A stretch of DNA of 64,000 nucleotides from Stichopus chloronotus (Eukaryota > Echinodermata > Holothuroidea > Aspidochirotida > Stichopodidae). The notes under the pieces were generated by a model, which was not told where the DNA came from, did no database searches, and saw only the letters and a list, made by a program, of their open reading frames with translations. The stretch covers positions 2,950,170 through 3,014,169 of the forward strand of contig CM037830.1 of assembly GCA_021234535.1 (NCBI GenBank). Direction: 5' to 3'. A program made the translations under genes and the position numbers. Shown one piece after another: positions 193-42,956 of this stretch (its first letter is position 1; each line of letters begins with the position of its first letter).

Positions 193-234
193 CTTTTGAT
201 CTACTGCTGCTACTGCTATCTTCATCACTACCCC
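193..234 (-). CDS. Micro-exon, 42 bp (GGSDEDSSSSSRSK), last in window
   Basis: Acceptor TTTAAG, donor GTAAGT, phase 1-1. Encodes GGSDEDSSSSSRSK. It has a donor, so at least one more exon lies beyond the left edge. Paralogue of the exon at 3103. Confidence 0.75.
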
Positions 235-3200
235 CTTAAATAAGATGAAAGAAATAATACAAAGGAGGTTACTAAAAAGCAGGATCTCTCTTAAGTCCAT
301 AGACAACCCGAAATATATTCATTGTCAAACAATTGTCCTTGGCAGACTCGCATAGGTGAGTGTGGTTTTAATATTTTACATTTAGACAAGTGATAATAGT
401 TTTTTCAATGATTATCTGCGCTAAACATGAACGGATATACTCACAAAAGGTAAATATTAAGTTAAGTAATATCATTACTGAGATAATATGGATTATGTAG
501 CGTCATTAAAGATTAATATTAACTGAAGATGGCAGCTTCATAATGAGTATGAAGTTGCCTTTAACGTAAAGATTCCGATGTGAAAAAGAAACAGTACAAT
601 TGGTCTAATTTTTATCTCTTAATCTGTTATCTCTTAATTTTTATCTCTTATTTTTATTCTTTGTTACCTCTTGTTTTGTTCCTGCCCATGCTTCGAGAAT
701 CTTCATAAACGAAGGAAACAAAATAAAAAATAAGGAGAATCGTTATTACTTGTGAATTATTTTATATTTTTATAAAAAGCTATGTCAATTACTGGATTAT
801 TTCGCTACTTACTGCAAGACGTTTGAATATCTAAAATTCACTTAATTATTATATCTTACGTTTGTGCTTCATTCAGATATGCAAATGTGTGTGTGTTTTG
901 TGTTATAACTACATCAACTATGTGAAATAGTAGAACAGAAACGCCCAACGGAGTTCATTCTGTGGGGCCTTGTAAATGTCATAAATATATTTCCTTGTTT
1001 ACCTGACGAATCAGAGGATCGGTCTTCGCTACTTCTGTCTGTGAATAAAAGAAAAAAAACTGACACCTCATAATCTGTTTTTGGATATATCTTTGAGGAT
1101 GACGTGATGTAATTAATTAGCCTTCGTTATTAATAAATTGCTATCTCAGGTATCCTAACAGCAGCCAAGATTACCATTGTTAGTGTTCATAGTTAGTGTT
1201 CATAGTTAGTGTTCATGGGTAATTACGATCTTCTAGAATGTATATAGGTTGATGATGAGTTATTCTCAACACTCTGCACAACAATATAGCTACACAGAGA
1301 CTGCCATAAGTCTTATAGTAAAATCACTCGTACTGTAAACTACATAACCTAAATCTCGTTCAATACACTGAACCCTCATAGAGGAAATGTTCACTCATAT
1401 AGGACTTTTAAATCTACCTGAGATCATACTGTGTCTGACCCTTCCGTGTAATTTATTACATCCATCTAAACATTATTTAAATGTCACTCACCATTGGTAC
1501 TTTCATCACTGTCTCTGGAATCTCCATCTTGTAATTAATCAACAATATAATTAATCAATAATATATGATAATATTAAAAATACTGAGAGCGCGGTAGCAC
1601 ACTAAAATCATTTCATGTGAAGCAAGCCAGAGATGGTAATATAACGAGTCTGAGGTCAATGCTAACATTTAGAAATCAATCGCTGACCTAAATAATGATA
1701 AAAGTATTTAATTGGTGTTACTTGCAGATCAGTTTTCCTTACCTCTTGTTCTGTTCCTGCTCATGTTCTCGTCCCCGTCTTCGTCCCTGGAATCTTTTTG
1801 AGAACAAACAATGAAATCAAATTAATACTTCGATTAGAATGCTTGAAGTGACAGAACTCATCTATTGCTCATTAACAAATAACTTTCATTTATTTAGGCC
1901 TATAAACTGATTTCACTGTTAGCTTTATTTCCTTCTGCTCATTCAAGGCCTTTAACGGAATAAAACGGAATTTCAATTGTGATCGACTTTACGGACTCGA
2001 AATTGTTGGATGCTGAATAGTTACAATGTACTCGCTACAGAAAATACATGCAAGTGTGAATTATTATATCGGAAGCATCGTTGATGATTTCAGATGGGAA
2101 TGTAAACACTTACTTGAAGAGGTGCTGCCTTTGTTATTTCTACCTGCGAAACAAATGTGAAAACCTTACACTTTGGTCTATGATATTTATACGAAAAAGC
2201 ACCACTTATTTGATTAGAGGTAATTCTTTATAAGCTGTAAGTGAAAGAGGTATTCAAACATAAGATAGATTCCCCAAATTTAATGCTAAAAAGAAGAGAT
2301 AACCAAAACATGTAGTTGCCAGGGATGCTGAGGTCACATTTCACGTGAATACGGTATGTTTCTTTGAATTTTGTGTTAAAAGTTCGAAGTTAGACTCAAC
2401 AGATTGTTTTTCAACTTTGTGGAACTTTACACCAACTGATATGTCTTCTTGCTTTATGTAGCTTTTTCATTCCGAGCTATTATTATATTGACAAGGTTGT
2501 TAGAAGTTTCCCAGAAGTGTATATTTTTAACAGGACAGTGTATATGCTTACATTTCCATTTCAGTTTAATGCCGATTTTCAAATACAACATAACGGGTTA
2601 GAATACTGATGTAAAATATCATACTCTACTTCATTTTGAAGATGTTTTTATGGTTTACTCTCAGTGCTTTTTTTCATTAACATTTCTTTAATATGTACAC
2701 CCTTTTCTACCTCTTGCACTCCAACTCCTACTTACTACGTGACAACTGATGTATGTTAAAGACAATTACCCTACCTCTTGAATTTAAAGCTAATTGTTTA
2801 CATATTTCACTATAAAAAGATATAATACAATATTTCAACGAACAAACAAAATAGATTATATAATGAGGAAAATAAAATGATAGAAATCATATCAAACTCC
2901 AGAATATTACATGTCCCACCATCTTTGGTTCTTTGGGTAATATTTCATAGGTTACATGTCTTATGACACAGCTGCTGTAGGTCACTCTTTCTCCCCATCA
3001 GTACCAGTTACTGCTTCTATACGTTTGATCTTTGAAAGTTTTCCGTTGAATTTTGAATGTTTGAATTTCTGATATTAAATCATCTTATTCAAGTTTTCTT
3101 ACCTCTTGATTTACTCCTACCACCACTTTCTTTATTACTACCACCTTATAATAAAAGAATGTAAGTATTAATGATGACAGCATCTTTGTTAAACACAAGG

Positions 3201-6200
3201 AATACACAAAATGGAATCATTTGAAATACATTTCTCATATTCAACATGTTTATAACGAGTGATTCAGAAACTCGTACATAAAGAATGTATTGTTTTGATA
3301 TTTTTTCATAATCATGTATTGCTGTTTGTGTTTGTTAATTATTGTCATATATGTACGTACATACTCGTCGAAGATAGTAACCAAGACAGAAAAGAACTAA
3401 AGTGGCCTACAGCGATGGATATGTACCCTTCATAATCCATGCAAAGGAAGCCTAGCCACACATTGATTTTCATATTGTAACGCTCATACCATAATGTTTG
3501 AAGTGGTAGTTAATATTCATTGTTCTTTCTTCTTTTTGCTCTTTCTCAGCCCTTGTTTTTTCCTGCCAGGGCAAGTTTTTGGCTTTTGTTTTGCGGGGGG
3601 GGGGGTTGTTGGGAGACGGAAAGGTCAACTTCTCGTTGCCATTCTCGGGGAAGGTCTGAAGAAAGGTGTAATCCTCCAACTTTGAAATGTTTCTGCTATG
3701 TCGAAGGACTTCGATGCAAATTTGTGCTATTTGCGTCTTTTATACTACATCTTTGTGATGAAAATGTGCTGTTTTCCTTTCGTCCAATGAAGCATTGCTA
3801 TCTTTGACGAAAAATGAAATATGACGTGCACGCCTGCATGTTTATGCCTGAGGAAGAGCATAGTATGCTTCTGCAACTCAAGCAAGTCTATATGGCACCG
3901 CTATTCCAATGGACACACACACAACAAAAATATCAGTCGAAGAAATATGATGAGTTTCTCGTCAGTGCTTCATACTATGCTTCGTACATTTTACGTTTTC
4001 GTACAAGTTAACGGGGCACAAATAAGTAGCTAAAAACAAAAATTGTATCGAAAGTATAGTTGGTGATTTCAGATGAGAACAAAGACACTTACTTGAAGAA
4101 GAGCTGCCTTTACTATTTCCACCTGCGAAAAAGATCTGAAAACCTTACACTTTGGTCTATGATATTTACACGAGATATCATATCTTATTTGACTTATTCT
4201 CTGTGAGTGAAAGATATATTTAAACCTAACGTAGATTCCCAAATTAAATATTAAAAAGGAGCGGTGAAGTACAATTAACACATGTACCGTAGTTGCCAGA
4301 GGTACTGAGGTAAAATTGCAAGTGAATGCATTACGTTTCTTCGAAATTTGAGTTAAAAGTGCGACTTATTGATCCAACAAATTGTTTTTAAACTTTGTGG
4401 ATCGTCACACCACCTGATATGTCTGCCGCTTTCTGTCGTGTTGTTATTTCTTGTTAATGACAAAGTTTCCCACCAAGTCTATGGTCAGTAACATGTAATA
4501 TGAAGGGCTTGAACACTAAAATGTCATAGTCTTGCTATTTTGATGATTTAATTATGTTCTACTCTTATTCCTTCATTTAATAAGTACACTCTTTTCTCTC
4601 GCTGTTACTTGTCCAACTTTTATTGCCTACATGACAACTGATATAACTGACAACTGATTAAACACAAAACCGGCTTGTTCCTCACTTGTCTGAATTGCCA
4701 ACATTTCTGTGTAAGTCGTAGACATAGCAGTAGTCATTTAATTAATTAATCAAAAGGATGCACATAATTTGAAATTGTCTTTACTTCACTTAACTTCCAC
4801 ACCCTTCCAGTTGGTCACACTAGTGCTACAAATGACTGTACAAGCGTGTATAGTTGCAATGCATATTCCTAATGATAGAGCTTCACATGCTTTACCAACT
4901 CGAGCAAGGGTCTCTTTGTAAGCACCGACATTCGGGTTAATACGAAGAATATCAGCGGAAGTAATGTAAGGAGTTTCTGTTCAGTCAGTGTTTCATACGC
5001 ACATATGACAGATTAACAAACAAGTTGATGAAAACAAAATTGACTTTCGTTGAGAGAATTAAAAAAAATAGTGAATTTCCGCTTGTGTATTTGTTAAAAG
5101 TTTGTCGATCATCCAGCTTCCATTTTCAAGTCTATTGTTTAATCTTTATGCAAGTCATGCAGTATACAGGAAAACTTTGACAAAGCTCTGTGTTTCGTCT
5201 GTTTTCAATTTCATACAAAAGAAGCCAAAATTCCCCAAATCTCCCATCAATTCCCCCAAACTTTACGCGAGGGAAGGAATTATGCAATCTGTCCTCCCAT
5301 GACATTTTCCTGCAGTCATCATTTCGAAAATTTCAAAGCACAAAGGAAAACAAAAACAACATAATAAAACGATTAATAGAGATTTCTCCGCAACTAAATA
5401 ATAGATTCACTCTGTTTGCGATATTTTGTCTTAGCTCTTTTAATGTGTACATAAAAATAATTTTAGTTATCTTCATTGGCTCATCGATACTTAATTCAGT
5501 TTTTCTTACCATTAGTTTTGTTCATGCTCTGGCTGTCTTCACCACTGGATTCTCCTAGGGGTGAAAGTGTGATAAAAATAATAGCTGTAAAATGAGAACT
5601 TCTTACTTACGAGAAGAAAAGTGCAATTATTCGTTGATTCGCTCTTTTTATGTGTAGGCATGCCATCACAATTTTAATACTTTCAGATAATCTACAGAGC
5701 TTTAACTCTTAGTGTATGTGTGTCGTATGGATGGTGAAATATGTGAATAGCATCAGTGTTCCCTTACAGTAGTATGCTGAGATGCGACAGTCAGACCATA
5801 ATTTTCTTACTTGATTGCTTTTGTCAGGAAATGACACATGAATAACATATTTTAAATGTTTTGGGGTGATCGAAGGGGAGCATATTCACCTAAACAGAAA
5901 AAAAAAATCGTGAAACAATTAGCTTACGTTATGCAAGTCAACGTTATAAGTTGGAACAAAACGTAGCTTGTTACTCTCGCGTTTGTGATTTTGTACGTCA
6001 GTCGCTGCATAAGACGTTTCCATATACTTTGTCTCCTCTGAATGGAAAGACTTGAATATGTCAAATGCTTTGAACAGATATAATGACTGAGAGATGACCA
6101 CAGACATGCGTAAAAGAAAACCAGCACAACGCAAACTTGTATAAACTGGCTTATACTACGCTTTGACGATCTCATTAGAGAACAACGTATACCATTTAAA

Positions 6201-9200
6201 ACTTATACCTATCATATTATCTTACCTGAAGAGTCATTATCATCATCTGTCATAATAAAACATCGTCAAATCGATATCATTATCCGATATCATTATTCAA
6301 TTAAAATAATTAATTATTGTGATTTTCATACAATGTCGGATTACAGAATAATACTGACAAATCACAATGATCTTGGCTGTTCTTTTATTTTTTGTTTTTG
6401 TAGCCTTGAGATTAATGTCAGGGTGGACACTTCTGCAGCATGAATTCACGGCTGTTTCGAAAGACCAAGATTGAATTTAACTCAGTGATAAGCATCGTGC
6501 ATATTCGAGATATATAAACAACAGGAAATGCGACCGAGTCAAAGATCTAGATATTCTTTTCTGAAACAATAAGTGAGAAATTATACACAAGTGAAAATTG
6601 AAAAAAAAAAAACGAACTAACAAAATATTGACAAAGATTACATAAAACAGTAATACAAATAAATTGAACAGATCATGCAGCTACTCTTTCATACTTGACG
6701 CTAAACAGTAAAAGAAGAAAAAAGGCAACTGCAAGCTAACCAAGCAAGGGCTTGTCATTCTCATGCTCTTATACGAATGCTAATTCGTAATGGTGTAGTC
6801 TCCATAATGGTGAATTCAAAATACTGTAAAATTGACAAAGTGAAGTCGGCAGTAAATTAAAACGGTGTCATTTTTAATTTGAAATACTTTTTTAGTGCAA
6901 GAAAGCGTTAATTTTTGTAAATCTTGTCTTTGTTCAGGCGTCTTCGAAAAACTGACGCGGTTCCATCTCTCTCACTGTTATTACAATGCCTTATACATTG
7001 ATGAAAATGTATATTTAAAACAATAGAAATACAATATATAAAAAAATAGCTAGAATATGTACCTAAAGTAATGATATATCTGGAGATCAAAGGTTCAATT
7101 AAACGTTTTTGCTGGATATTAGGGTGTATATGACGAAACGAACAAGCAATGTATCGCAAAGGTAAATTCATTTAACACAAAAAGTTACGGTAATTGCCTT
7201 GTGTTTCTACCAGACGTTAAAGGGTTGAAACGAAAGTGTATACTCTAACCTGAAGAGGTTGAAGATCGGCCATCACTGCCTTCATCTGTAAATTAAAACA
7301 GAAACCAATCAATAATTTGTGGTAGTATTTACGAAAGCTACAACATTTCACAATTACACAGAAGATCCCAAAATTAAACATTGACCCTCTTGGAGACGCG
7401 TGATGATCGGTCCTTTTAATTTAACGGTGACTCCATGACGCTTGGAAATCAAAGTAGTGAGGATCTTACTCTTACTCTAATATTTTACTGTCATAGAAAA
7501 AAAAAATTAAACTCACTTTCCGAAAACATGATTAAGTAGCAAACTTACGAAAACTGAATTTTGATTGCATGTTTGCATAAAATGGAGAGAATTTATTTAC
7601 AGTTGTTGAAAATCTTGTGTTAGCTTTATGAATATTATTCGTATCTGGAATGAAGCTGCTGGTAATAGTAAAATTAGTGGTCGAATGTCTATACTTCATT
7701 TGTACAACAATATGCAAAAGCAGTTATATTGTGATTCGGTACAGTAACCGAATACTATCACTGCAATTCTGACGTCATAGATACCGTCAGGCACCGTAAT
7801 CCAGAAACACCTCTTCTGTTGGAGTTCTTCCCCAGTCTGGTCCATGAGGTCACATGACCGTATCTGAAGATGACACATATTCATGTATCGTTTCATGTTA
7901 CTAGCGCAGACCATGTTTCTCTTAAAGAGTTGTCCGGATTCGATGCATCTTTTGCGAATCGCTGCACACCTGTCGGTGACGTCATTATCCTGTAGGGCAT
8001 CTCCCAGAAGTTTTTTGGTGGTTTCTGTCTCAAGTGACTTCGATTGAAGTTCTCCTTTAAATTTAATAAATAACGTATTAACAAAATGATGTCATATGGC
8101 GTATAACTCAGGGTATCGTTTTCAATAGGTGATTGTTGCTTACTTTGTGTCACTTGCTAATTTGTTTGTTTGCTGAACATTTTGACCAAATTACATTTTT
8201 TTATGATAAATATTGATTATCAGAAAGTTTCAAAACTATTTTAGTCGGTAAGATGTTTTAATCGATCTTGTACACAAGTCTCATTAACCCGTGTTACCCG
8301 CACTATTTTAATGAAAAAGCCTGTATCTGATGAGAAATACCTCTAACCTGAAGATATGAATTGACTAATACAATAATACAAGCGTTTCTCCTGTGATTGT
8401 TCTTCGTCTGCTAAACTTAAAATGTAATCATTCGATGACATTGTGAGCAGTATTCAAAATTCCCCGGGGACCTTTTTCATGACGGTAAGTCTACAATTCA
8501 AACAATGTTAACATTACAGCTTCAAGGATATTGAGTTTACTTTCAGATGATGCAAAAAAAGTTAAGTGACTTTTTTTCCATTTTTTCAATTTTCTTACAT
8601 TGCGACATTTATTAATTTTTTTAAAGAAAGGTTTAACGCTTCCGACAGCTTGCAAATACAGACCGTTTTGCTGTACGAATCATGCATTTCACCGTAAAGT
8701 CGTCATAGCTTGCATACAGAAGGGACCACATGTTGGGGTCTCATTTCACGTCAGTAACGATATGTGTTTGTCCTCTGGTTCTACTGATAGGTTTTTATAA
8801 AGGAAACAAGTTGTTGAAGATTTTGGCACCGTTGTATCTCGAGAACTCTCACTCATAGAAAGTTGTCAGAAATTAACACAGGGTTCATTTCAGACGGTTT
8901 CGTAGTAACATTGACCCCTAAATTCAACTACCCTTGACTTAACCAACCCCCTTCTATGCAATTATTTTTAACGTATCATTAGTGAAAAATTGTTGCAGTA
9001 TTTAATCTTCTAATTGTTTTTTTTTTCTTTTTTTTTAGGATAGACAAACTTCAAATAAGTTTGTAACAATGGTTTTCAATGCAGAAAATTCATTTATAAT
9101 TTACTACTGCCTGTTTCTTAATTATGAATACTTGTTGGACTGTAATCGTTTAATTACTCCACAAGTGAAATTATGTAATTTGAAAAATGGTAGTGCAGTC

Positions 9201-9545
9201 TTAAGTAGTTACTTAAGGTACTTAAAGAATATTTTCAGTAACATACCTGTCTAGCATTATTTGTCTACATATACATACCACTGTCTGCTTCATGATTTTG
9301 TCAATTAAATAACTATGTACATCATTTCTCTAACTGTTATCGCTATTAGTTGCAAAGATATTAAAGAAACATTAAAATTGACTTTTTATTGACCTTTTGA
9401 ATATATATAGAGGCAAGTTTAAATAAGTTTTAAGAGTTTGTTAAATGTGCTCACCGTTTACCAGTCGCTTCTTTCTCCATGCCTTTACCTCAGCACTTGC
9501 GTAGACGCAACCCAACAGGATCAACAGAGAGAAAGTTACTCTCAT
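193..9545 (-). CDS. Micro-exon gene, secreted Ser/Gly/Asp-rich protein (3'-partial)
   Basis: Gene-level entry. An ATG at 9545-9543 opens a 91-bp signal-peptide exon, followed towards lower coordinates by at least eleven exons of 36, 21, 45, 30, 42, 30, 51, 36, 36, 33 and 42 bp. All are multiples of 3, all introns are phase 1, and all donors are GTAAG/GTGAG-like (one GTTAGA). The joined 493 bp stay open, giving about 134 residues after the leader, almost entirely S, G, D, E, N, K and R with no Cys. No stop is reached before the left edge, so the 3' end lies outside the window. I do not recognise the family. The architecture (leader plus arrays of symmetric micro-exons) matches what is known of schistosome micro-exon genes, in which exon skipping generates secreted variants. 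Homology is not implied. Alternatives are a phosphoserine-rich matrix or adhesive protein. Function unknown. Confidence 0.75.
668..700 (-). CDS. Micro-exon, 33 bp (DSRSMGRNKTR)
   Basis: Acceptor ATGAAG, donor GTAACA, phase 1-1. Encodes DSRSMGRNKTR; a shortened relative of the exon at 1743 (both start DSR or NSR and end RN-basic-TRG). Confidence 0.7.
813..830 (-). CDS. Candidate 18-bp micro-exon
   Basis: Acceptor ATTTTAG, donor GTAAGT, 18 bases in the shared phase, reading DIQTSC with a trailing A. It would be the only Cys in the array, which argues against it; the likeness to 3012-3029 argues for it. Confidence 0.3.
1003..1038 (-). CDS. Micro-exon, 36 bp (DRSSEDRSSDSS)
   Basis: Acceptor TTCACAG, donor GTAAAC, phase 1-1. 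Encodes DRSSEDRSSDSS; same length and SSG ending as the exon at 7250. Confidence 0.7.
1179..1217. repeat. Short tandem repeat, 14-bp unit x3
   Basis: GTTAGTGTTCATA is repeated three times in a row inside a micro-exon gene intron. A minisatellite; no function inferred. Confidence 0.8.
1492..1527 (-). CDS. Micro-exon, 36 bp (DGDSRDSDESTN)
   Basis: Acceptor TTACAAG, donor GTGAGT, phase 1-1. Encodes DGDSRDSDESTN. Several S-x-E/D contexts would suit a secretory-pathway Ser kinase (inference from composition only). Confidence 0.7.
1743..1793 (-). CDS. Micro-exon, 51 bp (SRDEDGDENMSRNRTR)
   Basis: The largest of the array. Acceptor CAAAAAG, donor GTAAGG, phase 1-1. Reads, after the split codon, SRDEDGDENMSRNRTR: strongly acidic, then basic. 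Shares its last half with the exon at 668. Confidence 0.75.
2114..2143 (-). CDS. Micro-exon, 30 bp (GRNNKGSTSS)
   Basis: Acceptor TTCGCAG, donor GTAAGT, phase 1-1. Encodes GRNNKGSTSS, the trailing A giving Asn with the next exon. Paralogue of the exon at 4093; the surrounding intron sequence is also duplicated. Confidence 0.75.
3012..3029 (-). CDS. Candidate 18-bp micro-exon
   Basis: Acceptor CAAAG and donor GTAACT flank 18 bases, phase 1 compatible, reading DQTYRS with a trailing A. It resembles another 18-base stretch at 813-830, and both share CAAACG and end in GCA before the donor. Recurrence in the same array makes it more than a random hit, but the length and weak sites keep confidence low. 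Confidence 0.3.
3103..3144 (-). CDS. Micro-exon, 42 bp (GSNKESGGRSKSR)
   Basis: Acceptor TATAAG, donor GTAAGA, phase 1-1. Encodes, after the split first codon, GSNKESGGRSKSR. Same length and layout as the exon at 193, including an acidic pair followed by Ser/Gly and a basic end; I read these as paralogous exons. Confidence 0.75.
4093..4122 (-). CDS. Micro-exon, 30 bp (GGNSKGSSSS)
   Basis: Acceptor TTCGCAG, donor GTAAGT, phase 1-1. Encodes GGNSKGSSSS, with the last base A completing a Ser codon on the next exon. Near-copy of the exon at 2114, inside a duplicated block that extends several hundred bases into the introns. Confidence 0.75.
5510..5554 (-). CDS. Micro-exon, 45 bp (GESSGEDSQSMNKTN)
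   Basis: Acceptor CCCCTAG, donor GTAAGA, phase 1-1. Encodes GESSGEDSQSMNKTN; the final MNKTNG block resembles the ends of the exons at 668 (GRNKTRG) and 1743 (SRNRTRG). Contains an N-K-T sequon. Confidence 0.7.
6226..6246 (-). CDS. Micro-exon, 21 bp (DDDNDSS)
   Basis: The shortest well-supported exon of the array. Acceptor ATGACAG, donor GTAAGA, phase 1-1, seven codons (DDDNDSS). Same SSG ending as the exons at 7250 and 1003. Confidence 0.65.
7250..7285 (-). CDS. Micro-exon, 36 bp (DEGSDGRSSTSS)
   Basis: Acceptor TTTACAG at 7287-7286, donor GTTAGA, phase 1-1. It encodes DEGSDGRSSTSS plus the first base of a Gly codon. Ends in the Ser-Ser-Gly pattern shared with the exons at 1003 and 6226, which I take as one exon sub-family. 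Confidence 0.7.
7749..8054 (-). CDS. Candidate 306-bp Cys-containing exon in the micro-exon gene
   Basis: An open stretch of 102 codons between a plausible acceptor (TTTAAAG at 8056-8055) and a donor GTTACT at 7748. It is phase 1 on both sides, so it would fit in frame between the leader exon and the first micro-exon. The peptide runs from GELQSKSLETETTKK through DNDVTDRCAAIRKRC and SCDLMDQTGEEL to KRCFWITVPDGIYDVRIA. It has six Cys and ordinary globular composition, unlike the micro-exons. I do not recognise a domain. The polypyrimidine tract is weak. It could instead belong to another gene or be chance. Confidence 0.35.
9455..9545 (-). CDS. Exon 1: signal peptide exon of the micro-exon gene
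   Basis: Thirty codons plus one base. The protein begins MRVTFSLLILLGCVYASA, a classic secretory leader: Arg at position 2, a hydrophobic core, and an A-S-A end suiting signal peptidase. A short basic stretch follows (AWRKKRLVN), whose KKR could be a dibasic/furin-type processing site (inference). The donor GTGAGC leaves phase 1, the phase of every downstream intron. The next accepted exon is 7250-7285, or possibly 7749-8054. Confidence 0.75.
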
Positions 9546-23800: not shown

Positions 23801-26800
23801 ATCAAAAATACCAGATGTAAACATTGTTTAAAGGTGCAATTCTAGAAATTTCTTGCGTGAGTTTGGTAAGTTTACAACCTGAGCGAGAGAGCAATAAGTA
23901 GTTATCATGTAAAACAAGAGCCCAAGGGCAATGTGGTTGCATGTGCAGATGTAATGTAAATTAAGAAGGGAGCATTCTGCATGATTTTGCACAACAGCCC
24001 ATTTGGCCCATATCCTGAACACCCCACAGTTACCCTTGTGATGATTTGACAGACCTTCCACTTTATAACCTAAAATATGTAGAAGAAACATATTTCATGA
24101 TTTTATAAAATTGCTCTCAAGGCCCATTTCCGACAATGGATCCCAAACATAACAATCATCAAGATGGAAAAACTTCCATAGTGCTAACATGACAATTCAT
24201 CAACAATGTACATACATTCTGCTAAAGAAGAAGTATTTTGCATGATTTCATAAAATTGCCACAGGGACCTTCCACCAATACATTTCTGGTATCCCAAAGG
24301 AACCACTACCATATTAGTAATGCAACACAATGTCAGTTTAGTACCATGGTACCTTGGACTCAAACATACCGAACACCCAGAAAGAACCACTACCATAGTA
24401 GTGATCAATGTGACAAAACCTGAATTTGTGCCATACAATCTGCAGGAGAAGCATTTTGCACAATGTCATAAAATGGCCCATTCCAGACCTTGAAGTCAAT
24501 AATCCTGAACAACCTGAATATACCACTACCAGAGTAGTTATATGACACGACTTCAACTTAGTACCATGCAATCTGTAGAAGTTTGCATTTTGCACGATTT
24601 CATTAAACGGTCCATGTGGTCCATTTAGACCTCCAACCCAAAATATTAAATACCCCTGACATGCTGCAACCATAGTAGCAATGTGAGACAACCTCAACTT
24701 AATTGTAAAATCTGAGAAGAAGAAGCAATTGGTGTACTTTCAAACACTGGGCCCTTTGGCCACCCCATGGCCCACACGTGATCTCTCACACCCAAATTTT
24801 GTACAACCACTGAGGGCTCATAACCCCAGGATTATTGTCCACACGTTTCACCATTGTTTAAGAGAGAGCAATTTATAGCAATTGTGAACAGATGAGGTTG
24901 CTACAAAGAGAGCTGCGGGCCTCATCACAATTACAGCTCACACAAGGTAGTTACTAGTGTAAGTTGCAAATGTTTAGTTACCTGTTATTTTGTACTACTA
25001 TATAGAACCAACATTGTTCTTACACTGAAGCAAATTCAAAGATTACATTAATGGACCATATAAGCATCCATAGCATGAGAGACGAAACCTTGCCTGTCTG
25101 ACAATTACTGCCGTATATACAGAGTACTGAAGATCAAAATTTCACGATGTAGCAATTAGACTTTTAAAGCAAAATGGTATGGTAGTTCAAGAGTGTCATA
25201 ATATCACTGTTTAGGACTAGAATAGCAGGCTCCCTATCCTTTGTCTCTTACTTGATCTCTACCAAAACAAAATGAATCACATTTATCTACTCACAGTAAT
25301 GCATCCACATACAAAGTATAAAATTTCTCCTAGCTTTCTACCTTGAGACACAGAGTTAAAAAGGTATCCAGAGTTTTGCCCCAGTGTCCCTAAACGACCT
25401 TTGACCTCCACCAAACACAATGGGGCACACCTTAAAATGGCAAACCTACATACCAAGTTTTATTTTTATCCAAATTTTCCTTATTGAGTTACAACATACC
25501 CAAGCAAGTTTCACCAACAAACACACACCTGCCTACATGCATACATACACATACACATGCCAAACTGATTGCATAGGTTCCTTTGCTGATGCAAGGAACC
25601 AAGGACGGTGATAGAAAAGAGGATAAAAGAGGCACTGTACCCATGTAATGTGTGGATGAACTATGCATCTTAGATATTTCTGTGTTAAAATCTCAAAATT
25701 TGGTTAAACAAGAGTGGAAAATATGACCTTTTAAATTTCTTCAATGACTTTTGTTTAAAAAAATTTAATTTCTAAACATCAGACTTGCTCATCCTCACAC
25801 AATTTGCAGGTCAGTCTGGCAGGTCTTTTTGGTAGGTGCTGGGCATTGAATAGACAGCCCACATTCCACAAAACAATGGTCAGAGATGTAAAGCGTGGGT
25901 GTTGGTAAGTGTACAAGAATGTTCTCTGTATTTCTGGATAGTACAAGGTCTAGGGTGTGACCAGATCGATGAGTTGCAGTATTCACATGTTGTGCGAGAC
26001 CAATAGAGGAGAAAGTGTTCTGAAAAAACTTGGCATCTCCATTGTTGGGACAGTCGAGATGAAAGTTAAAGTCCCCACATATTAGTAGTATCTCATCACA
26101 CAGAACAACTGTTTCTAGATAACTTTCAGACTCATGAAAAAATCAGTTTGGAGAAATACGATGCTGTTGTAAAAACGGTGGTCGATATATTAAGCAAAGC
26201 CGTAGTGATCCTGTGGAATGAAGAACGAATTCAGTGAATCCAAAAGAATCTGTGACGCCAGCTTTATCAATCTTGACCTTGATGCAGCCCTAGAAACAAT
26301 CCCCAAACCCCCTCCATTGTGGGGTGGGGGACAGGGGTAATCTAGAAAGAAGTAGCCAGTAGGTTCCAAGGTTGCTCTGAGGGCATGATCATTTTCTTTG
26401 AGCCATGTCTTTGTTATAGCACAAACATTGAGTTCTGAGTCAACGATGTGATCGATGATGCATTCTGCCTTATTCCGTATTGAACAGGCATTTACAAGAC
26501 CAAGTTTAAGAAAAGGGAGAGTTGTCTGGCTTGGAAGCTTTAAGTGGAATTTTAATGTGGTTAAACTGCATACATTTTGATAAAAAGATGAAAATTTACC
26601 ACGTATAGACCTATTAGCCTATACGTGTCAATACGTATATATTATTTGTCCTTGCAAATGAATTATTTACCATTTAATGTTTGTTCCCACATGATTCAAA
26701 CATGATAACTCTAGCAATGTTTAATTCTCTACACTAAACTCAATCTACATGCTTCTGTGATGGCAATATCACTTAAATTCAATTTCCACACTTACCTCAA

Positions 26801-29800
26801 TTTATATGTATCAGTTGTTTTTTGAGATGGTATCCGACTTTACGAGTGGCCATCCTATCATATTATGCAATACGTACATCTCAATTTAGTGCTCTATTAC
26901 ATTTTGACACCTTCAGAAAAAAACTCAATTTTTCAGCCTTGTTAATTTCATAACTTGATTATTAGCATTCTCACAGGCTTCCTTTATCTCATTTGACTGC
27001 TGCTGTACTTTGTCTTGTTTGAGCTAAGACATGACACTGAGCAGTATCTGATGGAGTAAAGGACGTTATATACCTGACAAATATCCTCATTATGTATCAT
27101 CACTTTAAAAACAAAAGAGATTAAACTCACCTGTCCGTCACGACCACCACTTAGAGCAATGACCACCATTGCTTCAGGTTCTGTTGCCTGTCCTGCCTCA
27201 TCCAGGAAGACATGAGTAAAATGTCCAGCCTTTAGTCCCAGCTGGTAGAAGGTGCCAGCGGTACTGCAAGTAGTGACGATGATTTTGTGTCGAGCAACCA
27301 ACGCAAGGTCATCACCGGTTGAACAGTAAGGACTAATAACTTCAGGAATGGCCTGTAATTATGAAAAATAGATAGTAAGCAGTAAGCACTACCTTTAATC
27401 AAGACAGACAATGCAATGTAATAAAAAGAACTTGCAATGCAAAAACGCATTGAAATTTCCTTGACAACCCCCACCCAACCAACAAAAAAATTTACCTCAT
27501 AGAATGTGAAAAAAAGTTAAAAATTGTCATGCTCACCCCAAACCTGAACTGAAAATTGGTTTTTATATCAATGTTAGAAAATACAACCAATGTGTTTAGC
27601 TAATGGACTTAAACAAATTAATATGAAATTTATGGTTCACAAAATTTTCCCTGGTCATTGCAGCAATGAACCTGCATTCATAATTTGATTATTTCAACCT
27701 CAAATGATATCAGATGGAACTAAAAATATGCTGGTTGTTCTACTCAACACATTACATCCACAGTGTAAGGTGGGACATATACCCAAGCTTCTGTTGTTAC
27801 AACATCACAACAACATCACAGAAGTTGATCTCTTTTGACAACAATTAATGATATAACCAAAAACAAACGATCCAAATGCTTCACTTAACATGGAATATGC
27901 ATGCCAAAGTATGACAGTCACCCAAGCTTGATATTTTGTGATATTAAACTAGCCCTAAAATAACCTCAATTGACCTTCCACAACTGGAAAAGTGAGAGGG
28001 GTTTGCATCTGAAAATGTATCATTTGAAAGTTCATAGAATATTATGAATTCACAAATAGATATTGTTAATGTTGGCTAAACGTTGGTGTTGTATGTCTCA
28101 TATATGGCAGTTATATTAACTGTTTTAAGTCACTCTCAGAAACTGACTTATTTTGATCTGAATCATCCTTTGAACTCCACAAAAAACAAATCCATATCTA
28201 CTTAACGTGGTGTATCCAAGTGATGATGTGAATGATGTCCAAAATTCTCTTCATGAAATATAGTGTTTAGTATTTTACAACTAGCTTGAGTGGCATCACA
28301 ACACTTATGAACACACAAACATTGATAATAGACGGATATGTATCTCAGCCATCAGGATTGCAAAGTTACTCTCCTCATCAAAAAAAAAAGGTAGTTTCAA
28401 ATTAAAAAAAGGACAGCGGGATCTTGACAAATTTGAATGCATTCTTGTTTCTAACTACCTCTCTCTTTTATCCACCAACCCCCACCCTGTAGGATGTTGG
28501 ATGAATGTCCTATATTAGTGTTAATATTTCAATTATATTAGAATGTACGAGCTCACCTCTTCCTGTCTGCGGAAGGCATTCAATCGAACCATGTCAGAAA
28601 CAGTGACTTGACCACTTGCATGAAGTCGTTCAGCCTGTAAATAAACACAAGCACAAGACAACAAAACATTTATCAACAGATAACCCCCCATGTCAATTCA
28701 TCTCAAGGTTTGTAGTGCTAAAGACATAATTCAGAGACAAATATAGTGACCATGTGAGCCATTCACATTTTCAGGTATCTGCAGAATAAGTCACTAAGGA
28801 TCTATTTTCCATTTCATTTCATCCAAGGAGAATAGTCCTGTGTAACCATGAACCATGAATTGATAATTCAAAAGGGTAAACACAAACACCACAATGCAAT
28901 GATAGGAAGAGGTTAATGAAATTACTTTACCTTTTAAACAAAAAGGACAAAAAGTGATATTCATATTAATGATGGAATGAGATACTGAGCTACTAACAGG
29001 TTCTTGATAATTAAGATTACATTATACCTCCAACCAAACAATCAGTGAACCAGTACAAACAAAAACATATCTGTAAGTTGCAGTCTGTTGCCATAACTAC
29101 ATGGAAATGTAAGAAAACATCAATAGAAATAACACTGATTGGTTTTCAGGTTGGGTGACAAATAAACATAAAACACAAAGTATTAAATTTTGGCCATCGA
29201 ATGATACTAAAGAGGTGTTGTACTCATTGTGGCATTATTCCAAGAAGTGCCTGGTTCCAAACAGTTTCAACACCCATACTACCATGAAATTCAGCACAAG
29301 GTATGAAGCTCATGCTGAGAAGTACAAAGGAAAGACAGTGTCCTTTTTATGCTCACCAGTAAGTCGGCAGCACTGTTTGATGGTGTGCAGGCTAACACTC
29401 TACTGTGAGAGAGATGTTTGTGTATCTGCAAGATCGTCTCCACTACAGTAATGGTTTTACCAGTACCTAAAATGAATTAAAATGTAGAAATTTGTAAAAT
29501 GTTGATGTTTTCCTTACACTAGATGATCATTACTGACTTTTCAAACCTTTCATTCAAACTGTTAGTACATTGTTATTACAAATACCACAATGGTTCGCTT
29601 CTTGTCCACAAGTAGTTTAACACTAGCTGACAGTAATGGATACATGACTACTGTGGTAAATGCATTGTATTGCATGTGCAAGCATTAACCCCTGAGAGTG
29701 CCTTACTCTCAGTAAATGCACAGGTCCAGCGTTGATTACTGGTCCAGCGTTGATTAACCATGTTCATTTATACTCAGTGAGATTTTGATAAAAGAGAAAC

Positions 29801-41800: not shown

Positions 41801-42942
41801 TTTTGAGACAAGATTTGCACATGAGTGCTTTCATAAACACTAACTGTCAGTTCGTTATGATTAATATCCAGTTCATTCTAAAAGCAACTAAAGGTAGTAC
41901 TAGTGACAATGAGACATATTCTTTTCATAATTCAATCCTGTTAACCTGCATACTGTATTATTAAAAGCTACAAGACCATCAAGTACTTTAACAGTACAAA
42001 CATCCATCTACAGTAACATTAAATTCTCTGATGTTTATTCAGATAGCATTATGTTATCAAAGCATTATGTTAAATAAAAACTTAGTGAACATGATAGATC
42101 AGTAAGACAGAAAAATTATTGGTGAACATTTCTCACCTCTTCATTGGCCTGCTCTTCGGGTACAAATTTGTTCCCCTCCATTTTCCACGACTTTGATCGG
42201 ACTCAATAGCAACCCCTGTCAACCAGTCACCTTTCTGTGGTTTGAATCCATCACATGCCGCAAAGGGAAAGTAAATGTTACTATCTATGAAGCCATACCC
42301 AGGATAGACATGTGTGACCTCCCCTGTGAAGTGTTTATCCCTCAAAGGTTTAATAGCTTTGGCAGATGCTTCCCCTGTTAGGATGTTTTGAACTAGAGTT
42401 GCTTTCACCCAGTCTCCCCTATAGGGCTTAAAGTCATATGGAACAGCATCTTTGGAGAAGGAGATGTGGTCATTTATTGTACCCACTCGCTTATCATATT
42501 TGGTTATTTTACCAATGACAACCTCTTCCATTTCTTCTTTGACCTCATCATTGGAGTCAAACCAGTTTGAAACAATGGACACAGAAAGGGCTTGTTTGGT
42601 ACTGAGCTCATTTTCCCCAGTGGTTTCAACCACAGCTTGAACACTGGCTCCAACAACTGGACATTCTCTATCCAGAACTGATGATAAACTGAAGTATATG
42701 TCTCCATCTATAAGGCCATAGTCACCAAAAACCTGTGTTATAGTTCCACTGACTTGCTCTGTTCTCCTCTGTGCTTTGTATTCATTGGGGCTGATCGATG
42801 GTATGATAGTATGGGAGTTATCGATGGAATATTTCCGATCAGTTGCGGGATACTTCAGTGAAACATCATCGGTCAAAGTACTATCATTCTCCTCTTGATT
42901 AGTCCACAGGTTACTAATGAAGTTAAATGCTGTACTGAACAT
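17192..42942 (-). CDS. MOV10L1: MOV10L1-like piRNA-pathway RNA helicase (gene span, about 23 exons)
   Basis: Gene-level entry. MOV10L1 is a germline SF1 5'-to-3' RNA helicase that binds PIWI proteins and feeds precursors into piRNA production in perinuclear granules (known for the mammalian protein). The start [13 protein letters not shown] mirrors the hydrophobic-aromatic start of vertebrate MOV10L1. Motifs in order: Ia-type region, GPPGTGKT (split by an intron), DEAG box, [38 protein letters not shown], and [18 protein letters not shown]. The extended N-terminus separates it from MOV10 itself. Exons are placed by splice consensus and phase. Anomalies: surplus bases in the exons at 23619 and 17925, and an unresolved phase change between 41132 and 40269. 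It could be a pseudogene, but intact splice sites and conserved motifs elsewhere favour a real gene with assembly errors. Confidence 0.9.
17925..18123 (-). CDS. MOV10L1: MOV10L1 exon: YIGCDLP block, with one surplus base
   Basis: 199 bp where 198 would keep phase 0-0. The start reads DSKWRA in one frame and continues [20 protein letters not shown] in another; the D-x-x-W/F...N-x-x-Y-x-GCDLP layout matches the family end. The surplus base lies near 18103-18112. The exon ends in an acidic stretch ([20 protein letters not shown]) and a strong GTAAGTACTG donor. Confidence 0.8.
18446..18586 (-). CDS. MOV10L1: MOV10L1 exon: motif VI ([18 protein letters not shown])
   Basis: 141 bp, acceptor TTTTGAAG, donor GTAAGT, phase 0-0. 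[20 protein letters not shown] is motif VI with the arginine finger region (RFNVAITR), followed by [11 protein letters not shown]. Confidence 0.92.
18790..20146 (+). repeat. GGTTCC-ended repeat family, copy A (left end eroded)
   Basis: Left part holds roughly 110-bp tandem monomers (motif ACCATAGTAGTAA-TGACACAA at about 19090 and 19228). Right part holds the family end: CTCTAGTGCCCCCAGTGACC, ACCACCAAAAACGATAGGGC, ACTTTCATCC, CACA microsatellite, then ATAGGTTCC...GAGGAACC. Lies in a MOV10L1 intron, antisense to the gene. Confidence 0.7.
21052..21159 (-). CDS. MOV10L1: MOV10L1 exon: [11 protein letters not shown]
   Basis: 108 bp, acceptor TTAACTAG, donor GTGAGT, phase 0-0. [20 protein letters not shown] is motif V of the family with the catalytic-site Gln-Gly-x-Glu present. 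Confidence 0.9.
21969..22118 (-). CDS. MOV10L1: MOV10L1 exon: GIITPYRKQ
   Basis: 150 bp, acceptor TTTTCAG, donor GTATAT, phase 0-0. Reads [20 protein letters not shown] and ends [12 protein letters not shown], the segment before motif V. Confidence 0.9.
22897..23073 (-). CDS. MOV10L1: MOV10L1 exon: motif IV NYRSHP
   Basis: 177 bp, acceptor TTCAAAG, donor GTAATA, phase 0-0. [20 protein letters not shown] then LFYHGELEP; the NYRSHP and FY-x-x-EL blocks are standard SF1/Upf1-like. Confidence 0.9.
23619..23784 (-). CDS. MOV10L1: MOV10L1 exon: motif [13 protein letters not shown], with one surplus base
   Basis: 166 bp where 165 is expected (phase 0-0). [20 protein letters not shown] is in one frame, and [18 protein letters not shown] followed by HGCYDPLL is in the next. 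The switch falls near 23695-23701 after SLL; read straight through, the frame hits a stop a few codons later. Splice sites are sound (TATACAG, GTAAGA). No usable mini-intron fits. Confidence 0.85.
23912..25605 (+). repeat. GGTTCC-ended repeat family, copy B (most complete)
   Basis: Starts CAAGAGCCCAAGGGCAATG and ends GCATAGGTTCCTTTGCTGAT-GCAAGGAACC. The middle has at least four diverged monomers carrying CACTACCATAGTAG-type blocks (about 24306, 24390, 24524, 24668). About 1.7 kb, in the intron between the DEAG and motif III exons. Confidence 0.75.
25795..26520 (-). mobile_element. Non-LTR retrotransposon (CR1/L2-type) endonuclease relic
   Basis: The minus strand reads [20 protein letters not shown] with [16 protein letters not shown], then after frame breaks [26 protein letters not shown] and [11 protein letters not shown]. 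These are the usual N-A-x-S-x-x-x-K, T-E/K-TWL, GDFN-x-H, LDL-x-x and SDH landmarks of a LINE apurinic endonuclease. No reverse transcriptase follows; the relic is truncated and frameshifted, and lies in a MOV10L1 intron in the same orientation as the gene. Confidence 0.8.
27131..27352 (-). CDS. MOV10L1: MOV10L1 exon: DEAG box
   Basis: 222 bp, acceptor AATTACAG, donor GTGAGT, phase 0-0. [20 protein letters not shown] is followed by [19 protein letters not shown], the Walker B/motif II (DEAG) of the MOV10 group. Intact. Confidence 0.92.
28557..28634 (-). CDS. MOV10L1: MOV10L1 exon ([20 protein letters not shown])
   Basis: 78 bp, acceptor TTTACAG, donor GTGAGC, phase 0-0. Follows motif Ia and ends FRRQEE; the R-L-x-A-x-x-R segment is usual at this place in MOV10 proteins. 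Confidence 0.85.
29357..29466 (-). CDS. MOV10L1: MOV10L1 exon: Walker A TGKT and motif Ia
   Basis: 110 bp, acceptor CATTTTAG, donor GTGAGC, phase 1-0. Starts (G)[15 protein letters not shown] and includes [12 protein letters not shown], the motif Ia of Upf1-like helicases. Lys and Thr of TGKT are present, so the ATP site looks intact. Confidence 0.9.
30380..30581 (-). CDS. MOV10L1: MOV10L1 exon: Q-motif region and first half of Walker A
   Basis: 202 bp, acceptor TGCTGTAG, donor GTATAA, phase 0-1. [20 protein letters not shown] is the LN-x-x-Q-x-x-AV motif and [10 protein letters not shown] ends the exon, the Gly codon being split before the TGKT half. Confidence 0.9.
31179..32401 (+). repeat. 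GGTTCC-ended repeat family, copy C
   Basis: Starts ACAAGAGCCCAAGGGCACTC-TGGTTCCTTGCA and ends GGTTCCTTTGCTGACGCAAGG-AACCA. The start and end carry TGGTTCCTTGC and its complement, so the element has short terminal inverted repeats. A second internal start is at about 31505, and the right-hand 120-bp block is duplicated in tandem (32040-32190, 32190-32330). Confidence 0.75.
32496..32653 (-). CDS. MOV10L1: MOV10L1 exon beginning with LFPA
   Basis: 158 bp, acceptor TGTTCCAG, donor GTGAGT, phase 1-0. Begins [20 protein letters not shown] (first residue split) and ends SSKIKSYI. A variable linker before the helicase core. Confidence 0.8.
33269..33450. repeat. Tandem duplication, about 90-bp unit
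   Basis: Two adjacent copies sharing GGCGATATC-TTTTACACCA and GCAGTCATGATTTATGTTTT; in the intron next to the 29-bp exon. Confidence 0.75.
33646..33674 (-). CDS. MOV10L1: MOV10L1 29-bp micro-exon (TPLRRCHQA)
   Basis: Acceptor GTTGTCAG, donor GTGAGT, phase 2-1. Reads TPLRRCHQA and restores both frame and the conserved family motif between YSR and FLFPA. Too short for ORF scanning; found by looking for the missing motif. Confidence 0.8.
34624..34715 (-). CDS. MOV10L1: MOV10L1 exon with YNVRFTYSR
   Basis: 92 bp, acceptor TTTCAG, donor GTAAAA, phase 0-2. Reads [18 protein letters not shown] then [13 protein letters not shown], which must continue into the LRR-x-H motif of the family, supplied by the next 29-bp exon. 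Confidence 0.85.
35655..37352 (+). repeat. GGTTCC-ended repeat family, copy D (diverged or interrupted)
   Basis: A start-like AGGGCACTATGGTCCCTTG at 35660 and an end-like CATAGGTTCCTTTGTTAAC-AAAAGGAACC at 37327-37352 with the CCACCAAAAATGATACAGC block before it. The middle does not resemble the other copies well, so these may be two fragments. Confidence 0.5.
37541..37612. repeat. Minisatellite, 18-bp unit x4
   Basis: GTTTACACCAATGTATT is repeated about four times with single changes. It explains the overlapping open frames seen here. Confidence 0.85.
38156..38305 (-). CDS. MOV10L1: MOV10L1 exon with [14 protein letters not shown]
   Basis: 150 bp, acceptor TCAACAG, donor GTGAGT, phase 0-0. 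[19 protein letters not shown] is the highly conserved beta-barrel segment of MOV10-type (Upf1-like) helicases. Confidence 0.9.
38670..38768 (-). CDS. MOV10L1: MOV10L1 exon with [18 protein letters not shown]
   Basis: 99 bp, acceptor CTCATAG, donor GTGAGC, phase 0-0. [20 protein letters not shown] is the LL-x-x-EE-x-Q-x-x-x-DI-x-x-(Y/F)-DM signature that precedes the beta-barrel of MOV10-family helicases, strong support for the family call. Confidence 0.9.
39125..39239 (-). CDS. MOV10L1: MOV10L1 exon with [12 protein letters not shown]
   Basis: 115 bp, acceptor CATTCAG, donor GTGAGT, phase 2-0. Reads [19 protein letters not shown] then [15 protein letters not shown] proline-containing linker block conserved in this family before the helicase domain. 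Confidence 0.85.
39690..39835. repeat. TTTC microsatellite
   Basis: About 145 bp of interrupted CTTT units in a MOV10L1 intron. The long Phe/Ser and Lys/Glu-rich open frames across it are artefacts. Confidence 0.95.
40076..40269 (-). CDS. MOV10L1: MOV10L1 exon with [14 protein letters not shown]
   Basis: 194 bp, acceptor AATTTCAG, donor GTTAGA, phase 0-2. Begins [14 protein letters not shown], then an acidic/polar linker with [18 protein letters not shown], and ends YPGVKPTR. The F-x-I-GR block is characteristic of the MOV10/MOV10L1 N-terminal half. Confidence 0.85.
40403..40447 (-). CDS. MOV10L1: Possible MOV10L1 exon, 45 bp
   Basis: Acceptor TATTCTAG, donor GTACTT, phase 0-0, 15 codons reading [15 protein letters not shown]. 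It would join in frame to the [10 protein letters not shown] exon. The FKHL word is reminiscent of the family's segment before the D-x-E-IG motif, but this is a weak call. Confidence 0.4.
40846..40890 (-). CDS. MOV10L1: Possible MOV10L1 exon, 45 bp
   Basis: Good acceptor (AAGCTTAG) and donor (GTAAGAT) enclose 15 open codons reading [15 protein letters not shown] in phase 0. The phase agrees with downstream exons but not with exon 3. Included because the splice sites are strong. Confidence 0.4.
41132..41302 (-). CDS. MOV10L1: MOV10L1 exon 3
   Basis: 171 bp, acceptor TTTTCAG, donor GTATTA, phase 2-2. Reads [20 protein letters not shown] through to THITFSPR, an immunoglobulin-like beta-rich segment by composition. 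Its phase-2 end does not match the phase-0 start of the next certain exon (40269), so an exon is missing here or a base is wrong. Confidence 0.75.
41572..41721 (-). CDS. MOV10L1: MOV10L1 exon 2
   Basis: 150 bp, acceptor CTTTCAG, donor GTAAGT, phase 2-2. Reads from [16 protein letters not shown] through [19 protein letters not shown] to QLTLVLK. Belongs to the pre-helicase region typical of MOV10 proteins; no catalytic motif. Confidence 0.8.
42137..42942 (-). CDS. MOV10L1: MOV10L1 exon 1: N-terminal OB/cold-shock-like repeats
   Basis: 268 codons plus two bases; donor GTGAGA, phase 2. After a 60-residue leader, three similar segments appear at about residues 64-105, 141-185 and 205-247. Each starts with G-x-I/V-T-x-V/Y and contains YG-x-ID-x-x-IYF (TINDHISF in the second); segments two and three also have KP-x-x-GDWV/L. 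They resemble the S1/cold-shock-type OB folds seen in this family. The ATG at 42942 is preferred to the in-frame ATG at 42966 because the upstream bases look like an intron end. Confidence 0.85.
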
Positions 42943-42956
42943 TATGATTTGAAGAG

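Follow-up and report, generated by a model that had tools for sequence, protein, structure and literature searches.

Does a sea cucumber build a secreted protein from many tiny, frame-preserving exons, as schistosomes do with their micro-exon genes (MEGs)? The question is raised by the minus strand of a 64,000-nt window of the Stichopus chloronotus genome (the whole stretch of DNA that was analysed), where the original prediction placed a secretory leader directly followed by eleven micro-exons. Our analysis of the sequence suggests a modified answer: the locus probably encodes a secreted Kazal-type protein, and 17 micro-exons, all in frame and some of them duplicates of others, would make up its disordered, highly charged, Ser-rich tail (Table 1). 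The Kazal exon, six further micro-exons to the left of the window (x12–x17), three tandem gene copies and sea cucumber relatives were all absent from the original prediction.

Table 1. Predicted exons and associated signals of the copy A gene (window positions; a slash marks an exon boundary)
Feature	Position	Strand	Length (bp)	Details
Leader exon	9545-9455	-		ATG, predicted signal peptide, MRVTFSLLILLGCVYASAEVKAWRKKRLVN/G, ends in phase 1, donor gtgagc
Kazal-domain exon	8054-7785	-	270	phase 1-1, weak donor gtatct
Kazal-exon read-through	7784-7592	-		stop 7698-7696, AATAAA at 7597-7592; candidate alternative last exon, from sequence
Micro-exon x1	7285-7250	-	36	EGSDGRSSTSS, donor gttaga
Micro-exon x2	6246-6226	-	21	DDNDSS
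Micro-exon x3	5554-5510	-	45	ESSGEDSQSMNKTN
Micro-exon x4	4122-4093	-	30	GNSKGSSSS; sister of x6
Micro-exon x5	3144-3103	-	42	GSNKESGGRSKSR; exon family includes x11 and x12
Micro-exon x6	2143-2114	-	30	RNNKGSTSS
Micro-exon x7	1793-1743	-	51	SRDEDGDENMSRNRTR
Micro-exon x8	1527-1492	-	36	GDSRDSDESTN
Micro-exon x9	1038-1003	-	36	RSSEDRSSDSS, donor gtaaac
Micro-exon x10	700-668	-	33	SRSMGRNKTR, donor gtaaca; related to x7
Micro-exon x11	234-193	-	42	GSDEDSSSSSRSK; gene continues left of window

All eleven micro-exons proposed within the window (x1–x11) were present: each lies on the minus strand, measures 21–51 bp in a multiple of three, is in phase 1-1 with an AG acceptor and a GT donor (11 of 11), and encodes an open, Cys-free peptide rich in Ser, Gly, Asp, Asn and Arg. 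The same size range and divisibility by three apply to all 17 predicted micro-exons, which are separated by introns of 215–1400 bp. The donors, described as good, are so for most exons, whereas those of x1, x9 and x10 are weaker; weak AAG acceptors precede 5 of the 11 micro-exons in the window and 9 of the 17 across the whole gene. Since a phase-1 Kazal exon lies between leader and micro-exons and the Apostichopus japonicus protein P0001 has the order leader, Kazal domain, tail, the leader is probably not spliced straight to the micro-exons, and we treat such splicing as a rival rather than as the main form. The read-through open reading frame of the Kazal exon spans 8091–7699 on the minus strand, and the last exon has three alternative candidate starts (−5815, −4490 and −4565). 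The Kazal exon and the 17 micro-exons are predictions of what the spliced gene would contain.

Could such an array arise by chance? A scan for splice sites bounding open frames, with candidates counted by donor, covered 204 kb, made up of the three gene copies (51 kb) and 153 kb elsewhere. It returned 40 hydrophilic phase-1 candidates on the minus strand within the copies and none in the remaining 153 kb; copy A alone contributed 13 such donors, compared with a mean of 0.05 and a maximum of 1 in 40 local shuffles, bearing out the claim that chance would not yield this array. These 13 donors cover 12 of the 17 micro-exons, x15 having been found but falling below the composition cut, and x7, x8, x10 and x16 below the acceptor cut. 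None of the 43 open phase-0 candidates in the three copies was hydrophilic, so that phase and composition jointly, and not an open frame alone, single out the array. Moreover, at least six places in the 719-Mb genome match a 395-bp micro-exon unit, two of them in each gene copy, a pattern unlike that of a dispersed repeat. Genome-wide counts of an ATG...GGTAAG pattern were uninformative (2610 and 2602, versus 2712 and 2611 for the control). That there is no gene at all, but splice-like motifs arising by chance or a repeat, would fit the shortness and low complexity of the micro-exons and a residue drift resembling that of their flanks; the scan, the shuffles and the restricted 395-bp unit nevertheless speak against this, and we rejected it as highly improbable.

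The Kazal exon matched the Pfam family Kazal_2 (PF07648) with an E-value of 1.6e-5 and 25.3 bits, above the cut-off of 22.8, as did the longer predicted protein (23.7 bits). The match spans profile positions 12–48 of 48, from the third cysteine (C3) onward, the first part being unmatched, and the six cysteines follow the Kazal order (C-x6-C-x12-C-x10-C-x6-C-x14-C). Classical Kazal inhibitors have a C2–C3 spacing of 7 and an exposed P1 loop. As the corresponding loop has 12 residues here, the head is probably a Kazal-like binding module and not a classical protease inhibitor. The AlphaFold2 model of the exon reached a middling pLDDT of 77.5 (58.6–72.6 for the other four models), and at this confidence residues 8–39, spanning C1 and C2, are helical. 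None of 45 Foldseek matches to the model had an E-value of 0.001 or better, the weak ones including follistatin-family and ovomucoid Kazal domains (E 2.6 and worse), and a PDB sequence search gave a single, insignificant hit, follistatin-related protein 1 (E 0.14).

Homology searches, which reach relatives sharing short exact words (one scored 7978 candidates sharing most words), returned five relatives: one metagenome protein and four named proteins, namely A. japonicus P0001, P0002 (BSL78_07464) and P0003 (BSL78_07460) and Holothuria leucospilota P0004 (HOLleu_06406). The proposal of symmetric micro-exons downstream of a leader of secretory type is supported, and an echinoderm-like genome agrees with all four named relatives coming from sea cucumbers. 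The Kazal domain is 47–70% identical across the named relatives (66–70% to the three A. japonicus proteins), although P0003 scores just below the Kazal_2 cut-off (22.4 versus 22.8); 23 alignment columns are invariant in eight sequences, and the tails differ between species. In P0001 the leader is followed by the Kazal domain and a Ser/Gly/Asp-rich tail, and the leader exon resembles its N-terminus; a leader-like start is also found in P0004 and, among the three A. japonicus proteins, in P0001 only. The Kazal-to-tail junction reads VPD/D in all three A. japonicus proteins, coinciding with the predicted donor at 7785, and differs in H. leucospilota (IED). The relatives' tails are rich in Ser, Gly, Asp and Lys like that of this gene, yet they cannot be aligned in detail, the P0003 tail containing ∼53-residue repeats and that of H. 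leucospilota ESGGKSK-like ones. In two C12 paralogues in the S. chloronotus genome, a single exon encodes both head and tail, and one of the two has mucin-like repeats. With its homologous head and Ser/Gly/Asp-rich tail, the gene belongs with P0001–P0004 in what we predict to be a holothurian family of Kazal proteins with disordered tails, one branch of which would build the tail from duplicated micro-exons. The P0002 and P0003 genes are perhaps clustered too, as their locus tags are near and their contigs of equal listed size. The expectation that gene finders would miss such a gene is only partly right: its relatives, known here as proteins alone, do have gene models in A. japonicus and H. 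leucospilota. No paper that we found mentions BSL78_07464, and the word 'Kazal' is absent from the main text of PMC11925454; the Kazal inhibitor Kaz1 of Holothuria glaberrima is reported to be LPS-induced (PMC2702171 and PMC4264123).

At the DNA level, the micro-exons fall into the families x4/x6, x5/x11/x12, x3/x7/x10 and x9/x15, and more weakly x8/x14/x16; ∼400 bp around x6 are duplicated at 4042–4436 (76% identical). Seven overlapping, non-independent comparisons within two families and the extra copy B exon contained no gap in 282 exon columns versus 40 in 1015 flanking columns, with mismatches equally frequent in both (68/282 and 235/1015). At least one decayed micro-exon-like stretch was seen by eye near −2820. 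Computed on the variant with the −5815 last exon, the predicted tail has 222 residues, 87% of which are S, G, D, N, R, E or K (41 basic, 45 acidic), and includes five N-glycosylation sequons, eight SG and seven SxE motifs, three Pro, two Leu and no Phe. By reading, x12–x17 are of low complexity.

The main blocks of the three tandem copies (A, B and C) are ∼93–96% alike. In every copy, each of the 17 micro-exons keeps an open frame and a length divisible by three, with no stop or frameshift in 51 and with AG and GT retained in 50; x7 has lost its acceptor in copy C, and its 12-bp in-frame deletion in copy B is the sole micro-exon indel between copies. Copy B has one extra micro-exon (18), and the letters of x10 are identical between copies. 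The Kazal exon is intact in all three, each time with the weak donor gtatct, and the leader protein of copy C is identical to that of copy A, whereas copy B has a 19-bp deletion with a frameshift. Per copy pair, the flanks differ by 14, 7 and 17 indels in ∼3.1 kb (11, 7 and 14 of them not multiples of three); at this rate only ∼1.4 to 3.5 micro-exon indels are expected per pair, so the between-copy test has little power. Divergence in the micro-exons is only slightly below that of the flanking introns (3.0 versus 4.4%, 2.4 versus 3.6% and 3.7 versus 5.6%). The pN/pS ratios, based on few changes and with x10 read one base off (a slight effect on site counts alone), were 0.85, 0.44 and 1.45, indicating that the residues are hardly constrained.

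Two other readings of the locus have to be weighed against a Kazal protein with a micro-exon tail. One leader could serve two products, the Kazal exon acting as an alternative last exon, polyadenylated past the AATAAA, whose skipping joins the leader to the micro-exons. The phases of leader and micro-exons would allow such a join, all copies have the weak Kazal donor, and the read-through of the exon stays open for ∼29 further codons with an AATAAA ∼100 bp past the stop. Yet P0001, P0002 and P0003 each combine a Kazal domain and a tail, joined at the predicted donor, and no leader-plus-tail-only protein is among the relatives found, by searches not built to find one, making this arrangement unlikely in our view. 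It is also rather improbable that the array is a decaying relic, with most micro-exons unspliced and a short Kazal protein as the product. The pN/pS ratios of 0.85 and 1.45 in two of the three comparisons, the weak acceptors, the lost x7 acceptor, the frameshifted copy B leader and the decayed stretch near −2820 would all fit, but the 51 micro-exon copies have stayed free of stops and frameshifts while flanking introns gained indels that are not multiples of three, and Ser-rich tails are kept in the A. japonicus and H. leucospilota proteins.

Is the gene, then, a MEG? PMC10526429 describes MEGs as having many exons of 6–81 bp, mostly multiples of three, in long introns. Most of these exons are 15 bp long, and the products are disordered and rich in apolar Pro, Phe and Leu, the leader being followed by the motif FL(phi)(phi)FX6Wp(K/H/R). 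The likeness lies in the design, a secretory leader followed by many short exons divisible by three in long introns, all 17 of them within that size range. To this extent the label MEG-like was apt; it fails for sequence relation, composition and exon size. The exons here encode Ser/Gly/Asp/Arg-rich peptides, none of the 17 has 15 bp (the smallest has 21), and no FLxxF was read in the leader exon. True membership of the schistosome family, for which leader, exon lengths and introns of 215–1400 bp would speak, is rejected as scarcely credible, given the Kazal domain, a tail nearly devoid of Pro, Phe and Leu, and the lack of any MEG among the five relatives from three homology searches reaching as far as short exact words. 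We know of no MEG with a Kazal head.

A Kazal-like module together with an acidic region is likewise found in SPARC/SPOCK/SMOC and follistatin-type matricellular proteins, and SPOCK3 has 9-bp micro-exons, according to PMC5122892. Here, however, the Kazal domain comes first and the tail second, and a Pfam scan of leader, Kazal exon and tail to x11 detected no EF-hand EC domain such as marks SPARC/SPOCK; it reported three Kazal families and, below threshold, Nab6_mRNP_bdg and MA3. Secreted low-complexity proteins assembled from many small symmetric exons include the SIBLING/SCPP family and tropoelastin, but the exons of vertebrate SCPP genes are in phase 0, whereas those described here are in phase 1 behind a Kazal head. 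In the literature, we found no paper pairing 'micro-exon genes' with 'echinoderm', the pairing of 'Kazal' and 'microexon' for SPARC proteins only, and, among the matches listed, no title on a sea cucumber micro-exon gene.

The product of the preferred gene model would be a Kazal-like binding module with a hydrophilic polyampholyte tail, many of whose Ser and Asn sites would suit phosphorylation or glycosylation. Because every tail exon is a multiple of three in phase 1-1, the tail can change without touching the folded head: exon gain and loss may have lengthened, shortened or re-charged it in evolution, and exon skipping in the cell could likely do the same. The very large set of secreted variants in the original prediction is hypothetical. 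An extracellular role in matrix, mucus or coelomic fluid seems likely, the product serving as a tether or spacer whose length can be adjusted. A bolder and more tentative version is that echinoderms independently evolved MEG-like splicing. Each of the three tandem genes could then yield as many as 2^17 tails, all in frame, by dealing from 17 interchangeable micro-exons (18 in copy B) behind the Kazal head, while a paralogue on another contig would make a similar tail from in-exon tandem repeats.

If spliced as predicted, the gene would be a clear example, outside flatworms, of a secreted protein with a variable region assembled from symmetric micro-exons, a set that can expand. Within the family, two genomic routes, duplicated micro-exons and in-exon tandem repeats, would lead to similar tails. 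This would make it testable how genes hold the length, frame and charge of a disordered tail against drift of its residues, and whether the tail is tuned by exon skipping. Work on sea cucumber connective tissue, mucus and immunity would also gain a small family of rapidly changing proteins that are likely secreted.

All eleven symmetric micro-exons that the original prediction had listed on the minus strand (193–9545), following a secretory leader, were found, matching their description. The prediction had overlooked a further exon between the leader and the array, which matches the Pfam family Kazal_2 (25.3 bits versus a cut-off of 22.8). The gene also extends beyond the left edge of the window, where six additional micro-exons follow (x12–x17, continuing x1–x11 inside the window; negative coordinates lie left of base 1). 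For the last exon there are three candidate starts, at -5815, -4490 and -4565; ATTAAA or AATAAA motifs near the first of these lie at -5835, -5892, -5924 and -6015. If all 17 micro-exons are included and the last exon is the one starting at -5815, the protein is predicted to comprise 342 residues, and the micro-exons (21–51 bp, 9 of 17 being ≤36 bp) contribute 62% of the coding length. The abstract of PMC4317164 sets the upper bound for a micro-exon at 51 nt. Near -2820 (about 7140–7180 of L001, a stretch left of the window), DNA similar to x7 and x10 precedes gtgaca, lacks a suitable acceptor and by eye looks like a dead micro-exon.

Exons of the predicted Kazal gene and a paralogous open frame on contig C12
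Feature	Position	Strand	Description
Kazal exon	8054-7785	minus	270 bp, phase 1 in and out, six cysteines in Kazal order
Micro-exon left of window	-89..-130	minus	
Micro-exon left of window	-609..-650	minus	
Micro-exon left of window	-1257..-1295	minus	
Micro-exon left of window	-1998..-2030	minus	
Micro-exon left of window	-3340..-3384	minus	
Micro-exon left of window	-4232..-4264	minus	
Last-exon candidate	start -5815		SCSGAQIKL*, strong acceptor; identical peptide in copy C, different in B
Last-exon candidate	start -4490		TSESTETHH...*; 3/3 copies read open to a shared stop, few changes
Last-exon candidate	start -4565		strong acceptor, stop at once; identical in 3/3 copies
Kazal paralogue (L023)	C12:3484881-3483097		594-codon open frame, Thr/Ser-rich tandem repeats

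Whether such an array could arise by chance was assessed over 204 kb, using a scan for AG...GT segments of 18–60 bp with a length divisible by three, an open frame, modest splice scores and at least 80% S/G/D/N/R/E/K/T/Q residues, with candidates tallied per donor. The gene copies (51.3 kb for all three) contained 40 phase-1 candidates on the minus strand and the remaining 152.7 kb none; candidates in any other phase or on the plus strand numbered three inside the copies and two outside. When the composition cut was dropped, the gene copies also contained 43 phase-0 candidates; the array is thus marked by phase and composition jointly. For copy A, the gene in the window, 13 donors were observed, compared with a mean of 0.05 and a maximum of 1 in 40 local shuffles of this copy. 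Four of the 17 micro-exons (x7, x8, x10 and x16) fell below the acceptor cut of the scan and x15 below the composition cut; as predicted exons, these five rest on phase, composition, relatedness to other members of the array and occurrence in every copy.

Two further tandem copies lie to the left. Copy B spans roughly -44 to -62 kb, with 93–95% identity in its main blocks and less in the minor ones; copy C spans roughly -94 to -118 kb, with ∼96% identity. Searching the whole genome with the Kazal exon returned these three copies, a pair of distant relatives on contig C12 and two further weak matches (E 0.3 and 7.8). The Kazal exon and the 17 micro-exons are all multiples of three and open in each copy (18/18 in A, B and C), and their splice dinucleotides are intact throughout, with the single exception of the x7 acceptor of copy C, which is CG. 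The leader of copy B is frameshifted by a 19-bp deletion, so that this copy may have lost secretion of its product, or the product altogether. This copy alone carries an extra micro-exon at -50841 (GSKEDSSGRSRSR), located in ∼1.3 kb absent from copies A and C.

Left of the window, at about -14.8 to -15.1 kb (L002), lies an exon resembling an EXD1-type 3′-5′ exonuclease, a name we assume from inspection by eye. Similar DNA occurs near -29, -69, -79, -121 and -135 kb and thus recurs between the Kazal gene copies, which suggests that the duplicated stretch probably contains a second gene. Within the window, minus-strand exons at 42136–43020 and 26987–27358 match S1-like (PF14444) and AAA_11 helicase (PF13086) domains and resemble MOV10L1; if both readings hold, two piRNA-pathway genes would be adjacent. 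Also present are a single open frame on the plus strand (52892–53284) in which a TIL trypsin-inhibitor-like domain leads into the first part of a fibrinogen C domain, possibly a FReD-type immune or matrix gene, and, by eye, fragments of a LINE-like endonuclease/reverse transcriptase frame (25798–26618, minus strand).

DNA comparison grouped the micro-exons into the families x4/x6, x5/x11/x12, x3/x7/x10 and x9/x15, and more weakly x8/x14/x16. The ∼400 bp surrounding x4 and x6 are 76% identical. As this unit has at least six matches in the genome, two in each gene copy, a dispersed repeat seems unlikely. In seven overlapping pairs from two micro-exon families and the extra exon of copy B, gaps occupied 0 of 282 exon columns versus 40 of 1015 flank columns, whereas mismatches were equally frequent (68/282 and 235/1015). 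Between gene copies, the pN/pS values of the micro-exons were 0.85, 0.44 and 1.45, and the sole micro-exon indel is in frame, the flank rate predicting only some 1.4 to 3.5 per pair. Judged from these alignments, frame and kind of residue are maintained while the residues themselves drift, a pattern that a disordered spacer would be expected to show. Constraint at the protein level is therefore weak, and it is the frame, the composition and the relatives that support reading the array as coding.

Database searches found five such relatives: three Apostichopus japonicus proteins (P0001, P0002 = BSL78_07464 and P0003 = BSL78_07460), one from Holothuria leucospilota (P0004 = HOLleu_06406) and one metagenome-contig protein. 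P0001 has the layout of the predicted gene, with a signal-type leader, Kazal domain and Ser/Gly/Asp tail; a leader-like start is absent from P0002 and P0003. The tail of each of the three A. japonicus proteins starts at ...WIEVPD|D, the residue of the predicted donor at 7785, whereas the H. leucospilota junction differs (NIEDESG). The long P0003 tail is built of ∼53-residue repeats, that of P0004 of ESGGKSK-like repeats. By reading, the Kazal exon of both C12 relatives is still entered in phase 1, with Kazal head and tail in a single open frame; the 594-codon paralogue would be likely to vary in length between individuals. The family thus retains its head and renews its tail: one branch does so through repeats inside the exon, the other through duplicated micro-exons. 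A more canonical Kazal motif (VCGTDGKTYQSRC...) lies at about 3480490–3480615, flanked by the two C12 paralogues, and nearby an ATG at 3487095 begins a signal-peptide-like start (METALLLMALFMFCC).

Schistosome micro-exon genes (MEGs) are similar in design: according to PMC10526429, their exons measure 3–81 bp (6–81 in the running text), most being 15 bp long and most divisible by three, with introns of up to 5 kb. Exon size, composition and homology do not fit membership of the Kazal gene in this group. SPARC/SPOCK proteins likewise place a Kazal-like module beside an acidic region (PMC5122892), but the scanned part of our predicted product has no EC domain. In the open-licence literature searched, we found no paper linking micro-exon genes with echinoderms and no description of this holothurian Kazal family, and Kazal domains and micro-exons were linked only in the SPARC paper.

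Classical Kazal inhibitors have seven residues between C2 and C3; here the interval is 12. The best AlphaFold2 model of the domain (pLDDT 77.5, eight sequences; four other models 58.6–72.6) has a helix spanning C1 and C2 and gave no significant match in a fold search. The long interval and the modelled helix favour a role in binding over inhibition. The tail (222 residues, 63 Ser, 41 basic, 45 acidic), with five N-glycosylation sequons, eight SG and seven SxE sites, reads as a modifiable hydrophilic spacer. The product would be secreted; the Kazal exon would be spliced to the micro-exons, and individual micro-exons could be skipped. Nine of the 17 micro-exons have weak acceptors ending in AAG, and the Kazal donor (gtatct) is also weak, which would promote variable inclusion. 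Anatomy, Kazal domain, gene copies and relatives form the established part of this picture, and a role of the array in making isoforms is plausible, if unproven. The gene is very likely real, with a striking layout, and a branch of a holothurian Kazal family, in which the micro-exon array is the new element.
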